DNA from: Cumulibacter manganitolerans
GTDB lineage: Bacteria > Actinomycetota > Actinomycetes > Mycobacteriales > Antricoccaceae
NCBI RefSeq assembly: GCF_009602465.1
Contig: NZ_WBKP01000013.1
Coordinates: forward strand, 1 to 64,000
DNA length: 64,000 nt
Reading direction: 5' to 3'
The translations under genes were made by a program, and so were the position numbers. Under the pieces are notes generated by a model. It was not told the DNA's origin, did not search any database, and worked only from the letters and a program-made list of their open reading frames with translations. Below, one piece after another: positions 11,298 through 36,892 of this stretch; position 1 is the stretch's first letter; each line of letters opens with the position of its first letter.

Positions 11298-12155
11298 CTA
11301 CCGCTCCTCACGCCGCTCACGCGGCGTGCGCAGCACCCACCGCGCCACGACGTCGATCGCGAGCCCGAGGGCGCCGATCACCACGATGAGGGCGGTGATG
11401 TGGTGATAGGCGAGCTGGTCCTTCGCGTTCAGGATCTGGTAGCCCAGCCCGCTGGTCACGCCCAGCATCTCCGCCGGCACCAGCACCACCCAGCCCAGCG
11501 CCACCGCGCCACGGATGCCGCCGAGCACGTGCGGACGGACCGAGGGGGCGGTGACGGTGCGCAGCAGCTCCCAGCGGGTCGCGCCGAGCGCGCGGGCGAC
11601 GGCCCGGTGACCCGGGTTGACCGCTCGTACGCCGGCGAGGGTCGCCAGCACGATGGGCCACACCGTGGTCAGGGCGACCAGGGTGATCACCGGCAGGTCC
11701 CCGATGCCGACGAGCACGATCACCAGCGGCGCCCAGGACAGCGGCGAGACCATCCGCAGGAAGCTCACGACCGGCCGGGTGGCCCGCTCGAGCCGGCCGA
11801 CCGACCCGATCGCGACCCCGAGCAGCACGCCACCGACGACCGCGACGAGCAGCCCCGCGACCAGCCGCAGCACCGACGCCGCGGCGTCGTCGAGCAGCAC
11901 GCCCGAGCGCCACAGCTCCACCAGGCCCGACCACGTCCGGGTGGGCGAGAACTCGCGCACCAGCGGTCGACCGGCGAGCAGGACGTCGGTGACCAGGAAC
12001 CACAGCCCGATCGCGGCCGCGGTACCCAGCACGGCGTACCACGCCGCCGGACCCGGGCGCCGGGTGGCGCGCGCATCCGCCTCGGGGCCGGGCGCGGACG
12101 CCCGCCGGACGTCGGGACCGCCGGACAGCCCGGGTGCGGTCGTCGCGGTGCTCAC
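11298..12155 (-). CDS. ABC transporter permease (nitrate/sulfonate/taurine type)
   Basis: A 285-residue inner-membrane subunit of the SsuC/TauC type with about six helices and the cytoplasmic coupling loop ARALGATRWELLRTVTAPS. Start GTG 12155 overlaps the previous gene's stop by four bases (GTGA), a sign of translational coupling; AGGAG precedes it. It would form the channel for the solute delivered by the binding protein encoded just upstream. Last gene of the five-gene operon read from 15681. Confidence 0.88.
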   Translation of the reverse strand: MSTATTAPGLSGGPDVRRASAPGPEADARATRRPGPAAWYAVLGTAAAIGLWFLVTDVLLAGRPLVREFSPTRTWSGLVELWRSGVLLDDAAASVLRLVAGLLVAVVGGVLLGVAIGSVGRLERATRPVVSFLRMVSPLSWAPLVIVLVGIGDLPVITLVALTTVWPIVLATLAGVRAVNPGHRAVARALGATRWELLRTVTAPSVRPHVLGGIRGAVALGWVVLVPAEMLGVTSGLGYQILNAKDQLAYHHITALIVVIGALGLAIDVVARWVLRTPRERREER

Positions 12156-13321
12156 GGTTGGATCAGCTCCTGACGGGTCAGCTTGGTGGCGGGGATCGTG
12201 CCGCCCCCGAGGGCCTGCTTGACGAACCGGTCGTCGACCAGCTCCTTGTGCACGGACTCCCCGGTGACGCCCTGCAGGAAGCCGGTGTCGCCGTCGATGG
12301 CCGTCGAGCGCATCGATTCGACGAGGGCCGAGGTGTAGCTGGCCAGGGGCAGCGCCGAGAAGCCGAGCCGCTCGCCGTGCCAGTCGGGGTGCTTGGTGAC
12401 CGAGGTGTACGCCGCCGGGTCGCGGCTGAAGACCTTCTGCACCGGCGCCGCGGGCTGCGGCAGGTACTTGCCGTCGGCCAGCAGGCCGCCCATGTCGCCG
12501 CGGTGGCCGTCGATCCACTGCTGCGCCTGGACGAGCGCCGTCCCGATCGCCTGCGCGGTCTGCGGGTCGGACTCGATCAGGTCCTCGCGCAGCACGATCG
12601 CGCAGCAGGCGTGCTCCTTCCACACGTCACCGAGGAAGCGGTGCACGCGACCGACGTCCTTCGCCTCGGCGACGGCGCTGAACGGGTCGGCCACGACGTA
12701 CCCGCTGACCTGGCCGGACGCGAGCGCCGGAACCATGTCGGACGGCGCCATGACGGCCAGCTGCACCGAGCCCTCGGACGCCGAGGGCGCCTGCCGGACG
12801 ACCGGCTTGAGGCCGGAGGCCAGCAGCATGCGCTGCAGGACGATGTTGTGGATCGACCACCAGTAGGGAATCGCGACCGTGGTGCCCGCGAGCTGCTCGG
12901 TGGCGGTGATCGACTTGCCGACGGTCAGCGCGGACCCGTTCACGTGCCCCCAGCCGATCACCTTGAGCGGGATCTTCTTGGCCAGCCGCAGCTGGACGGC
13001 GAGCGGCATGAGGACGTGCGCGACGTCGACCTCGCCGATGGCGAAGGCCTGCGCGAGCGCCTCCCAGGAGCGGAACATGACGGGGGCGGGCGAGGTGATG
13101 CCTTGCCGCGCGAGGAACCCCTTCTCGTGCGCGAGCAGCAGGGCGGACGCGTCGGTGATCGGCAGGTAGCCGATGCGGACGGTCTTCTTGCCGCCGCTGG
13201 CCAGGGCCGGGGCCGCGGCGTCCCAGCCGCCCTTGAGCGCCAGGCCGCCGACCACGCCGGCCGCGGCCACCCGCCCGGTGAGCCGCAGCGCGCTACGGCG
13301 CGACAGGGTGTGCTCAGGCAT
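12152..13321 (-). CDS. ABC transporter substrate-binding protein, NMT1/SsuA type, Tat-exported
   Basis: A 389-residue binding protein. The N-terminus SRRSALRLTGRVAAAGVVGG has a twin-arginine signal. The mature part begins KTVRIGYLPITDASALLLAHEKGF, the pattern of the NMT1/NrtA/SsuA group that binds sulfonates, nitrate or thiamine precursors. Export as a folded protein by Tat fits the family in actinobacteria. It overlaps the ATPase gene by 8 bases. The ligand cannot be read from sequence; the operon's leader peptide suggests a sulfur compound. Confidence 0.85.
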   Translation of the reverse strand: MPEHTLSRRSALRLTGRVAAAGVVGGLALKGGWDAAAPALASGGKKTVRIGYLPITDASALLLAHEKGFLARQGITSPAPVMFRSWEALAQAFAIGEVDVAHVLMPLAVQLRLAKKIPLKVIGWGHVNGSALTVGKSITATEQLAGTTVAIPYWWSIHNIVLQRMLLASGLKPVVRQAPSASEGSVQLAVMAPSDMVPALASGQVSGYVVADPFSAVAEAKDVGRVHRFLGDVWKEHACCAIVLREDLIESDPQTAQAIGTALVQAQQWIDGHRGDMGGLLADGKYLPQPAAPVQKVFSRDPAAYTSVTKHPDWHGERLGFSALPLASYTSALVESMRSTAIDGDTGFLQGVTGESVHKELVDDRFVKQALGGGTIPATKLTRQELIQP

Positions 13322-14057
13322 CGACCAGCTCTCCTCGCGTCGGCGCGGCCGAAGCCGGCAGGTCGAACGCTGCGCGGATCGTGTCGCGCAGCGTCTCCCG
13401 GGCGGCGGTCTCGTCCGCGACCGTCCACCGGTGCTCGATGCGGCCGCCGTCGATCAGCACGATCTGGTCGGCCAGCAGCACCGCCTCGTCGATGTCGTGC
13501 GTGACGATGACCGAGGTCAGGTTCTCCCGCCGCGACTCCTCCCGCAGCCAGCCCTGCAGCGAGGACCGGGTCGCGGGATCGAGCGCGCTGAACGGCTCGT
13601 CGAGCAGCAGCAGCTCGGGCTCGACGGCGAGCGCCCGCCCGAGGGCCACCCGCTGCGCCTGGCCACCCGAGAGCTGATCGGGGTAGCGCTCGGCCAGCTC
13701 GGCGATCTCGAGCAGCTCCAGCAGCCGCGGGACCCGCTCGGCGTTCGCCGCGCGGTTGCGCCCGTAGCCGAGCCCGAGCGCGATGTTCTCGCGCACCGTC
13801 AGCCAGTCGAACAGCAGCGCCTGCTGGTAGACGACCGCCTGGCGCTGCGGGCGGCCGTCGGCGGCCAGCTCGATCGTGCCGGCGTCCGGCACGATCTGGT
13901 TCTCCAGCACCTTCAGCAGGGTCGACTTGCCGGCGCCGCTGCGTCCGAGGACGGCGACGCAGCTGCCCTGCTGCACGGTCAGGTCGATCCCGGTCAGCAC
14001 CGGCGTACCGCCGAGGGTGACCTCGACGCCTACGAGGTGAGCGACGCTAGTTCCCAT
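13314..14057 (-). CDS. ABC transporter ATPase (SsuB/TauB/NrtD type)
   Basis: A 247-residue ATPase that powers import. Walker A GRSGAGKST (39-46), signature LSGGQ (129-133), Walker B LLLLDEP (149-155) and the switch His in THD are intact. Start ATG 14057 after GGAAGGA, overlapping the end of the flavoprotein gene by 28 bases. With the binding protein and permease it forms a complete importer. Confidence 0.92.
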   Translation of the reverse strand: MGTSVAHLVGVEVTLGGTPVLTGIDLTVQQGSCVAVLGRSGAGKSTLLKVLENQIVPDAGTIELAADGRPQRQAVVYQQALLFDWLTVRENIALGLGYGRNRAANAERVPRLLELLEIAELAERYPDQLSGGQAQRVALGRALAVEPELLLLDEPFSALDPATRSSLQGWLREESRRENLTSVIVTHDIDEAVLLADQIVLIDGGRIEHRWTVADETAARETLRDTIRAAFDLPASAAPTRGELVDA

Positions 14058-15124
14058 CGCAGCTGTCCTTCCGAAGGGGATTGCACGGGCAGGAACGCGG
14101 CCTCGCGGAACCGGCGCGCGGTGCCGCTGGAGGCGACATAGCCGCGGCCGCCGGCCAGCGCGGCCTCGAGGCGGGTCGCCTCACCGGCCGCCAGGCTGGC
14201 GTCGAGGCGCAGGCGGACGAACTCGACCAGCGGCGCGGCGGCGAGGTCGTCGGTCAGCCGGCGCCAGCGCTCGGTGACCTCCTCGACCTCGCGGCGCACC
14301 AGGTCGAACCGGTCGCGCAGGCCCTCGTTGCCGGACCGCTCGACGGTGGCCGCGGACTCCTCGAGGGAGCGGCGGGCGATGCCCACGCAGAACGACGACT
14401 GCAGCGCCAGGAAGGTCGGCCGGAAGGCCCGTGCCGTCTCCGCGAAGTCCCAGCTCAGCACGGCGTCCCGCGGGATCCGCACGCCCTCGAGGACGACGGA
14501 CGCCGACGCGGTGGCGTTCAGGGCGAGCAGGCCGTCGACGTACCCCACCCGCACGCCGGGATCGCCCACCCGGAACCAGGTGATGATCCGACGCTCGTCG
14601 TCCAGCAGGACCGGGATGACGACGACGGCGCCGTCGACGAGGTTGGAGGCCCACCGGATCAGCCCGTCGACGACGAGCTCGTCGCCGTCCAGGCGCCCGG
14701 TGACGCCGAGCGGCTCGATGCCGGCCAGCGCCTTCAGGCCCGAGGCCATCGCCGTGGACCCGATCGCGTCGCCGGTGCGCAGCAGCGCGACGGTCGCCTC
14801 GTTGAGCGGCGTCCGCTCGCCGCGCGCGAAGTAGTCCAGGACCATGCGGTGCGCCCACAGGCTGAACGCGCTGCTCATGCACTCCTCGGCCAGCAGCGCG
14901 ATGAGGCTCGCGCTGCCGCCGATGCGGGCCGATACCGCGACCGGGCTGTCGATGGAGTCCACACCGAGGTCGAGCAGCTCGCGACGGCCGAGGTCCCGCA
15001 GGATCTCTGAGGTCGGCACCGCACCGGCGTCCACGTCGCGGACGCTGGTGGCGACGCGCTCGCGCACCTCGTCGGCCTGCGCCGCGATCTGCTCGAAGCC
15101 GCTCGGCAGGTAGGCGGTGGTCAT
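14030..15124 (-). CDS. Acyl-CoA-dehydrogenase-like flavoprotein (SfnC/DszC-type candidate)
   Basis: A 364-residue protein with the acyl-CoA dehydrogenase fold but a divergent sequence. It keeps the middle-domain pattern and C-terminal helical bundle (SLEESAATVERS), while the usual catalytic and CoA-binding motifs are not recognisable. Members of this branch linked to SsuABC-like importers include flavin-dependent monooxygenases for sulfones and other organosulfur compounds, which is the inferred role. Start ATG 15124 overlaps the DUF4242 stop (ATGA). Substrate is not known. Confidence 0.65.
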   Translation of the reverse strand: MTTAYLPSGFEQIAAQADEVRERVATSVRDVDAGAVPTSEILRDLGRRELLDLGVDSIDSPVAVSARIGGSASLIALLAEECMSSAFSLWAHRMVLDYFARGERTPLNEATVALLRTGDAIGSTAMASGLKALAGIEPLGVTGRLDGDELVVDGLIRWASNLVDGAVVVIPVLLDDERRIITWFRVGDPGVRVGYVDGLLALNATASASVVLEGVRIPRDAVLSWDFAETARAFRPTFLALQSSFCVGIARRSLEESAATVERSGNEGLRDRFDLVRREVEEVTERWRRLTDDLAAAPLVEFVRLRLDASLAAGEATRLEAALAGGRGYVASSGTARRFREAAFLPVQSPSEGQLRWELASLTS

Positions 15125-15681
15125 CGCGAGCCCTCGGCGACGGACGCTGCACCGAGGGCGTGCAGCCGATCGATCGGGGTCTCGACGATCGCGCGGGCGC
15201 GGACGACGGCGTCCTCGTCCGGGGCGTTGTAGAGGCACAGGCACTTCGCGGTGTCCTCGCGCACGTACGTCCGCAGGAACGAGACCTCGGGGATCTCGGC
15301 GTAGCGCGGCGACTTCTCCTTCTTGCGCGCGAGGTAGGTGTCCATGTCGATGTGCGCGGGAATGTCCCACTCGACGAGGTAGCCGGCCTCGGGGCGCACG
15401 GCCTTGATGTCGGCGAGGTCGGCACCGACCAGGCGCACCGGGTCGGGTCCCTCGACCTCGGCCACGTCGTCGACGCCGAGGACGGCGGTGCCGAGCGCCT
15501 GCTGGTCGGCGGTCTCGAAGACCAGGAAGATGCGGTCGGCGCCCGCGGTCACCTCGGCCTCGATCAGCTCGGCGCCAGCGGTTGCCGCGCGCTGCTTCGC
15601 CTGCTCGATCACGGCGGCGGCGGCGTCCTTGGTGGCGGTCGCGGGAACGATCTCGATGAGGGCCAGGATGGGCTCAGACAT
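15121..15681 (-). CDS. DUF4242 domain protein, first gene of the sulfur-type operon
   Basis: A 186-residue protein. The second half (about 98-180) matches DUF4242: DIPAHIDMDTYLARKKEKSP, then FLRTYVREDTAKCLCLYNAPDEDAVVRAR. Streptomyces members of this family bind nickel and have a ferredoxin-like fold. The first half has a similar length and predicted alternation of strands and helices and may be a second, diverged copy. ATG 15681 follows GGAG. It is placed behind a leader peptide and hairpins. Confidence 0.75.
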   Translation of the reverse strand: MSEPILALIEIVPATATKDAAAAVIEQAKQRAATAGAELIEAEVTAGADRIFLVFETADQQALGTAVLGVDDVAEVEGPDPVRLVGADLADIKAVRPEAGYLVEWDIPAHIDMDTYLARKKEKSPRYAEIPEVSFLRTYVREDTAKCLCLYNAPDEDAVVRARAIVETPIDRLHALGAASVAEGSR

Positions 15682-15710
15682 GGGTATCTCCTTGTTTCTG
15701 GGTAGGAAGA

Positions 15711-15735
15711 TGCGCGCACGGGTGTCGTGCGCACA
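15711..15735 (-). promoter_or_regulatory. Second hairpin in the operon leader
   Basis: TGTGCGCACG pairs with CGTGCGCGCA (one U-G in minus-strand RNA) around a 5-base loop. It lies between the attenuator-like hairpin and the DUF4242 ribosome site. It could be part of an alternative fold. Confidence 0.4.
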
Positions 15736-15743
15736 GCAGAAGG

Positions 15744-15789
15744 AGAGCCCCCTGGAAAAGGAGGCGGCGAAGGGCCGGGTGGGGGCTCT
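15744..15789 (-). terminator. Attenuator-like hairpin after the leader peptide
   Basis: AGAGCCCCC pairs with GGGGGCTCT, starting seven bases after the leader peptide's stop codon. Minus-strand RNA continues CCUUCUGCUG, a weak U-tract. The position relative to the leader stop is as expected for a ribosome-controlled attenuator. An anti-terminator partner was not identified with certainty. Confidence 0.55.
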
Positions 15790-15795
15790 GCGGGA

Positions 15796-15870
15796 CTAGC
15801 GACAGAGAGCGCTGTCAGTCATGACGTGATCGACGGTGAAACGGCGTACGGCGTAGAAGCTCGTCGGCAC
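15796..15870 (-). CDS. Leader peptide ending -SALCR (putative cysteine-responsive attenuation)
   Basis: A 24-residue peptide, GTG 15870 behind a strong GGGAGG. Its C-terminal part, VRRFTVDHVMTDSALCR, matches the actinobacterial leader-peptide pattern 'RRhvDl.rvsSALCR' that precedes sulfur-uptake and cysteine-synthesis operons. The cysteine codon lies two codons before the stop, so ribosome stalling there would report low Cys-tRNA. The frame stays open upstream to 16050, but only this start has a ribosome site. Function is inferred from the pattern and position. Confidence 0.7.
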   Translation of the reverse strand: MPTSFYAVRRFTVDHVMTDSALCR

Positions 15871-15935
15871 GTTCCACCTCCCGAGATCCTCGGCCACGCG
15901 ACGCGCGTGGTCCGGTCTGTTCACGTCCGCCCGCA

Positions 15936-15964
15936 ATAGTACAGCGCTCAACCATCCGGTGACA
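15936..15964 (-). promoter_or_regulatory. Candidate promoter of the leader peptide and operon
   Basis: Minus-strand TGTCAC, 17-base spacer, TACTAT. The -10 is close to consensus, the -35 weak. It predicts a start about 60 bases before the leader GTG. Confidence 0.45.
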
Positions 15965-16012: not shown

Positions 16013-16029
16013 ACCGAATACGATTCGGT
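16013..16029. promoter_or_regulatory. Palindromic operator candidate before the acyl-CoA dehydrogenase pair
   Basis: ACCGAAT-acg-ATTCGGT is a perfect 7+7 inverted repeat with a 3-base centre, overlapping a possible -10 (TACGAT) and 75 bases before the ATG at 16104. Size and symmetry suit a TetR-type dimer. No regulator is encoded next to it. Confidence 0.5.
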
Positions 16030-36670: not shown

Positions 36671-36701
36671 GTTCGGGGGCCGCTCTCCTTCTTCCATCTC
36701 A

Positions 36702-36850
36702 CCCGCCTACCGAGTTAGCTGACGGGTTCGGGCTAGGAAGGTTGCCCTACGCGCGGCCGAGGCCGTTCGATTCACCCCAAGGAATACCAAGTTGGTTCCC
36801 CGGCACCTCGCGCGCCCGGCAGGGTCTGCGATGAGTTTCGGCGGTGCCCT
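36702..36850 (-). promoter_or_regulatory. c-di-AMP riboswitch (ydaO/yuaA type)
   Basis: Minus-strand RNA carries the conserved blocks in order: GCCGGGGAACC (about 36797), GGGGUGAAUC (about 36777), GGGCAACC (about 36747) and the 3' signature GCCCGAACCCGUCAGCUAAC-UCGGUAGGC (36702-36730). This is the class that binds cyclic di-AMP and controls cell-wall hydrolase genes in actinobacteria, normally shutting them off when c-di-AMP is high. It ends 32 bases before the NlpC/P60 start. Boundaries at the 5' side are approximate. Confidence 0.92.
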
Positions 36851-36892
36851 ACCCGTCGCTCTGGTCGACCGACTCGGTGGCAGGACGGTGCC

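Follow-up and report, generated by a model that had tools for sequence, protein, structure and literature searches.

A putative cysteine-responsive leader-peptide attenuator ahead of a DUF4242-flavoprotein-ABC operon in Cumulibacter manganitolerans, and a UGU codon pattern in its leader family

Here we describe a short open reading frame with a strong Shine-Dalgarno (SD) sequence, lying directly upstream of a five-gene operon on the same (minus) strand of the window, by which we mean the whole 64,000-nucleotide stretch of DNA analysed. The frame is predicted to be translated and, with a probability that we put at roughly two in three, acts as a leader-peptide attenuator that responds to cysteine, belongs to the actinobacterial Cys-leader superfamily, has a translational output and controls a DUF4242-flavoprotein-ABC operon. 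Judged by its sequence, the locus is a real Cys-leader attenuator, and Cys-tRNA sensing appears supported by the family relation and by the position of the Cys codon. It brings a new gene set under Cys-leader control and represents an SD-led, single-Cys version of such leaders that current models overlook. Of greater importance than the single locus is a family-wide pattern in which one Cys codon, at a fixed distance from an invariant Asp, is nearly always UGU.

The leader peptide and its relatives

The leader peptide, VPTSFYAVRRFTVDHVMTDSALCR, is encoded at 15796..15870 (-), from a GTG start at 15870-15868 to a TAG stop at 15798-15796, and reads V-P-T-S-F-Y-A-V-R-R-F-T-V-D-H-V-M-T-D-S-A-L-C-R over 24 codons; its strong SD, GGGAGGTGG, occupies 15874..15882 (-). 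The putative regulatory Cys codon, TGT at 15802..15804 (-), lies 9 residues past the conserved Asp and two codons ahead of the stop; it is the only Cys codon of the leader, which has no run of them. The original prediction, namely a 24-codon frame with a good ribosome site, an ending in SALCR-stop and one Cys codon two codons before the stop, describes this minus-strand frame correctly throughout. A candidate -10 element, TACTAT (15936..15941, -), was picked by eye about 66 nt ahead of the leader start; a consensus scan gave no match for it, and a comparable TACACTAT precedes the leader of one sister species (locus L003). Further upstream, between the leader and a divergent acyl-CoA dehydrogenase gene, a 17-bp inverted repeat, ACCGAATCGTATTCGGT (7-3-7; window 16013-16029), has an identical copy upstream in L003 and may serve the divergent genes as a repressor operator.

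A leader precedes the orthologous gene in both of two sister species, as MKSFVAVRRFTVDLLLTASDLCR in L003 and VATTFYAVRRFTIDYGRLRTTCS in L002, and the differences are partly synonymous (CGT/CGC/CGA, GAT/GAC), the pattern expected for a translated peptide. A profile of the two sister leaders alone matches the window leader at E 6e-10. When all six-frame stretches of the 64 kb were searched with an HMM built from 26 leaders of other genera, the window frame ranked top at E 0.056, improving to E 1.7e-7 once the two sister leaders were added. The window leader, RRFTVDHVMTDSALCR, carries the R-x-x-[VI]-D-x8-Cys core near its stop with a spacing of 9. In Nocardia, Rhodococcus/Prescottella and Tomitella, leaders of the RRLH[VL]DLVRVAGAAC type (MTRSNLTRRLHVDLVRVAGAACRHRR) stand ahead of the same five-gene operon. 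The leader, including the Cys near its stop, is shared by the genus and 12 Nocardia/Rhodococcus/Tomitella operons, which bears out the conserved Cys codon that had been proposed as a check among relatives.

The Nocardia leader of the same operon scores 38.1 bits against NCBIfam NF042934 (cut-off 27); among related leaders there are also matches to the models of Cys-rich leaders Ms5788A and Ms4527A. Against NCBIfam and Pfam the window leader itself gave no match, the 27-bit cut-off of NF042934 not being reached, and the L003 leader likewise has no NF042934 match. Having no NCBIfam score, the window leader is called here a divergent relative and is kept out of those models; by sequence it is such a relative of the Cys leader peptides already known from actinobacteria (NF042934, Ms5788A). 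A class-wide scan found such leaders in 117 of 297 genomes, and, at E 0.001, Ms5788A-type matches occur in 176 of 200 genomes of the order, with 52 of these above the curated cut-off. The genes 3' of related leaders, as read from their translations, are PAPS-reductase-like, nitrite/sulfite-reductase-like, or encode ABC binding proteins (sulfonate-type) and permeases; one related leader elsewhere precedes a flavoprotein of the kind found as second gene in the window operon. A search of the window's own genome with a profile including the window leader, a DNA pattern and NF042934 found no further family leader. The sister genome G001 carries a second Cys leader, RRCIDLCRVSACRCRAI (Cys codons TGC TGC TGC TGT), at about 899-952 of locus L183 (G001:C1:738000-742500), preceding an ABC substrate-binding protein gene at L183 1021-2277.

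The operon and its occurrence

The first structural gene (15121..15681, -; start ATG 15681) encodes a two-domain protein with a DUF3303/GYD-like N half (PF11746, 30.3 bits) and an SCO4226-like (DUF4242) C half; the latter matches PF14026 at 74.3 bits, in agreement with the original assignment of a DUF4242 gene to this place. It is followed by genes for an acyl-CoA-dehydrogenase-like, weakly SfnB-like flavoprotein (14030..15112, -; TIGR04022 at 3e-6, below cut-off, and PDB acyl-CoA dehydrogenases), an ABC transporter ATPase (13314..14057, -; PF00005), an ABC substrate-binding protein of the NMT1/SsuA type (12152..13321, -; PF13379, 151 bits; TIGR01728 SsuA, 87 bits, below cut-off) and an ABC permease (11298..12101, -; PF00528; NF040733, 133 bits, below cut-off). 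The operon probably fetches sulfur compounds; the 'organosulfur' role given to it would follow solely from the family resemblance of the binding protein and the flavoprotein. In the literature on DUF4242, nickel binding by SCO4226 was the only relevant report found. No PAPS reductase was found in the genome of the window (G000) or in four relatives of its family, the PF01077 matches of G000 and G001 read by eye as NirB-type nitrite reductase, and G002 has no PF01077 match. The group therefore seems unable to reduce sulfate and may be without a dedicated sulfite reductase, which would fit a need for other sulfur sources; the Cys-controlled operon is nevertheless kept.

Relatives that have the operon but lack the small frame, which the original prediction had named as evidence against itself, do exist, in lineages other than those of the leader-bearing loci above. 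The DUF4242 gene occurs, in most cases together with all of the operon, in Kocuria, Rothia, Brachybacterium, Streptosporangium, Propionibacteriaceae and others with no leader found by a motif scan of 600 bases, a scan that unlike leaders could escape. In Kocuria, Rothia and Brachybacterium, such leaderless copies of the operon or of its first genes are widespread (L006, L008, L009, L011, L014, L020, L024 and others). The presence of the operon without a leader in many lineages marks the leader as a lineage-specific control device and not as part of the function of the operon. That many relatives' operons have no detectable leader, and that the window leader itself lies under the NCBIfam detection limit, counts against the attenuator reading. 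No Rfam family was found in the window 5'UTR or in 11 related loci, so the leaderless operons are not explained by a known riboswitch. Elsewhere in the window there are a c-di-AMP riboswitch (RF00379, 82 bits; 36689-36853, -) and, opposite a fatty-acid desaturase gene, a match to the M. tuberculosis sRNA ASdes (RF01781; 10829-10896, +), which may only reflect coding conservation.

Folding of the 5'UTR and the regulatory output

Both structures of the original prediction, a GC-rich stem 7 bases past the leader stop and a second hairpin, are present. The first is a perfect 9-bp stem of AGAGCCCCC (15789-15781) with GGGGGCTCT (15752-15744), and the second, at 15711..15735 (-), pairs TGTGCGCACG (15735-15726) with CGTGCGCGCA (15720-15711) over 10 positions, 90% of them Watson-Crick. 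The 5' arm of the first stem (15781..15789, -), here strand 2, would be within reach of a ribosome at the leader stop and not of one at the Cys codon, given the footprint assumed. Strand 3, CAGGGGGCTCTCCTT (15740..15754, -), contains the arm GGGGGCTCT, and its sequence CTCTCCTT is complementary both to strand 2 and to strand 4 (15679..15693, -), which comprises the SD AAGGAGA and the ATG of the first gene and is predicted to be sequestered by strand 3.

The window 5'UTR folds better than 200 of 200 shuffles (z -3.8). In the fold of the full 5'UTR, UCUCCUUCUG hides the SD of the first gene, and in an RNA that starts right past the leader stop, the AGAGCCCCC stem forms and the gene SD is mostly open. 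With the ribosome edge set 12-13 nt beyond the A site, and in a test picked after the fold had been seen, the predicted openness of the SD was 0.37 for a ribosome paused at Cys and 0.13 for one at the stop codon, a difference matched by 0.7% of UTR shuffles. A mutually exclusive, SD-hiding fold set by the position of the ribosome was found in silico, in the window only.

The proposed mechanism would run as follows. A ribosome translates the 24-codon leader and, when charged tRNA-Cys is scarce, would pause at the lone UGU, Asp+9, two codons ahead of the stop; strand 2 would then remain free to pair with strand 3, which would leave the SD and AUG of the first gene open and allow the operon to be translated. 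With plentiful cysteine, the ribosome would proceed to the stop codon and cover part of strand 2, whereupon strand 3 would pair with the SD and start codon and shut the operon. The modelled direction is consistent, cysteine shortage opening the operon, and in this model the more fitting role for the GC-rich stem is that of an anti-sequestor, releasing the gene SD. Cys-tRNA sensing, the ribosome footprints and a translational in preference to a transcriptional output are what we infer; translational attenuation is the most likely output and Rho its main rival.

Counting against the model, the switch fold is seen in the window only and is not conserved in relatives. By the same SD-openness measure the switch of strands 2, 3 and 4 is absent in the sisters L002 and L003, and in most Nocardia leaders the difference is small or nil; the AGAGCCCCC stem is absent from both sister species. 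The arrangement in L003 is different, with leader codons pairing with the SD (openness 0.13 free and 0.40 paused), and its SD hiding is equalled by 2 of 100 synonymous leaders. The length of the 5'UTR also varies across the window and its sisters (114, 202 and 317 nt), which suggests that the peptide is conserved and the RNA wiring is not. A general pairing of the Cys region with the gene SD in all operons was considered and rejected for want of a common geometry: such pairing is strong in several Nocardia leaders, yet SD openness hardly shifts there. In an alignment of Nocardia 5'UTRs inspected for covariation, the pairing stretches looked near-invariant.

Varying 5'UTR length without a conserved hairpin would also suit a Rho-dependent output, in which the same Cys-sensing leader is followed by termination in the C-rich stretch past its stop, and a Cys-paused ribosome hinders Rho or the release of RNA polymerase. 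The 5'UTRs past the leader are indeed C-rich and G-poor (window C 0.44, G 0.22; L003 0.39/0.23), but an excess of C may be widespread among actinobacterial 5'UTRs. Seliverstov 2005 (PMC1262725) suggested Rho for the cys leaders of mycobacteria; these leaders are now, however, described as translation attenuation, and cited so in a 2026 paper (PMC13236596). As the window, in addition, offers a strong structured alternative that hides the SD, we regard the Rho output as unlikely, if still the most serious competitor of translational attenuation.

The original prediction recognised the layout of attenuation by Cys-tRNA, of which the Cys leader peptide and its sensing, as judged by family and position, hold up and the terminator and anti-terminator arms do not. 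Classical transcription attenuation would take either the AGAGCCCCC/GGGGGCTCT stem or the second hairpin as an intrinsic terminator, and a perfect GC-rich stem 7 bases past the leader stop, with a second hairpin behind it, invites that view. A scan, however, found no U-tract and no terminator-like site, neither hairpin is followed by a U-run, and the stem is missing from both sisters, whose 5'UTR lengths differ as well; moreover, a pause at Cys would let the first stem form, the wrong direction for a terminator. We hold an intrinsic terminator to be very improbable.

The UGU codon at Asp+9

The related leaders (L049-L202) were gathered only by protein-level searches, leaving the set free of codon bias, and were aligned on the invariant Asp. 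Among 114 distinct leaders, the Cys codon 9 residues past this Asp is TGT in 112 and TGC in 1; the remaining leader, that of sister L002, has its TGT at Asp+8, and the single TGC exception has a TGT at Asp+2 instead. Elsewhere in these leaders, Cys is encoded by TGC in 79 cases and by TGT in 30 (Fisher p 1.8e-33, a nominal value because related sequences are not independent). The control within leaders is the stronger argument: where further Cys codons are present, the Asp+9 codon is TGT in 50 of 51 leaders. After collapsing to 78 distinct 12-residue cores, 77 have TGT. Ms5788A-type leaders obey the rule too, RRAVDLCRVATCLC being almost always encoded as TGC, TGC, TGT. TGT is rare in genes, accounting for 1 of 23 Cys codons in the window genes, 2 of 74 in the first genes of the class loci and 20 of 141 in Mycobacteriales operons. 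The third positions next to the Asp+9 codon vary, favouring C/G, so the rule concerns the codon itself rather than an extended RNA motif. Not all Cys attenuators follow it: in Rhodobacterales, the cysS motif uses mostly UGC (PMC8632094). No description of the rule was found in the literature searched, a search that Canestrari et al. 2020 lay outside.

The simplest reason for the rule would be slow wobble decoding of UGU by the single tRNA-Cys, and a part played by the nascent chain is suggested by the constant distance from Asp. A single Cys codon would be a weak sensor if only tRNA charging mattered, which counts against the attenuator model in its plain form. We tentatively propose, as possible rather than probable, that the whole Cys-leader superfamily uses one rare UGU at a fixed distance (9 residues) from the invariant Asp instead of mere counting of Cys codons, which would suggest codon-specific, possibly nascent-chain-assisted pausing; UGU might, for example, be decoded slowly by tRNA-Cys in a manner perhaps sensitive both to the charging of the tRNA and to its sulfur-containing modification. 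Should the pattern prove causal, changing one base (UGU to UGC) would show whether the speed of a codon and the nascent chain are read by these attenuators, and not the supply of charged tRNA alone. That the Cys codon is conserved across genera, in position and in its UGU form as well, with wobble bases otherwise free, and that sulfur genes follow leaders of the family, makes it most improbable of all that the small frame senses no cysteine and is a translational enhancer or a remnant without regulatory use, even though many relatives have the operon without it and leader genes can raise translation through reinitiation (PMC4833913).

Comparison with known systems

The uORFC-8-2 motif upstream of cysS in Rhodobacterales (PMC8632094) is likewise a ribosome-mediated attenuator with Cys codons, but has an intrinsic terminator with a U-run and tandem, mostly UGC, Cys codons that do not follow the UGU rule. 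The actinobacterial Cys leaders described in 2005 (PMC1262725) resemble the window leader in being without a conserved terminator, and differ in the operon that follows and in their runs of Cys codons in place of a single one. Closer still is NF042934, a cis_reg_atten entry named 'putative leader peptide', whose cut-off the Nocardia leader of the same operon passes; the window leader differs from it in having FT in place of LH before VD and no Arg at Asp+3.

With the mycobacterial polycysteine leaders (NF042933 leader_Ms5788A, NF042936 leader_Ms4527A) the window leader has in common the R-x-x-V-D-x8-Cys core near the stop, a place upstream of sulfur/cysteine operons and the UGU at Asp+9. Canestrari et al. 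2020 reportedly described a paused ribosome that blocks mRNA structures hiding the ribosome site of the next gene. The Ms5788A type is leaderless and has a Cys run, whereas the window leader has one Cys codon and falls below the NCBIfam models; its strong SD and the candidate promoter element about 66 nt upstream argue against a leaderless start. Unlike the mycobacterial polycysteine leaders, it precedes a DUF4242-flavoprotein-ABC operon.
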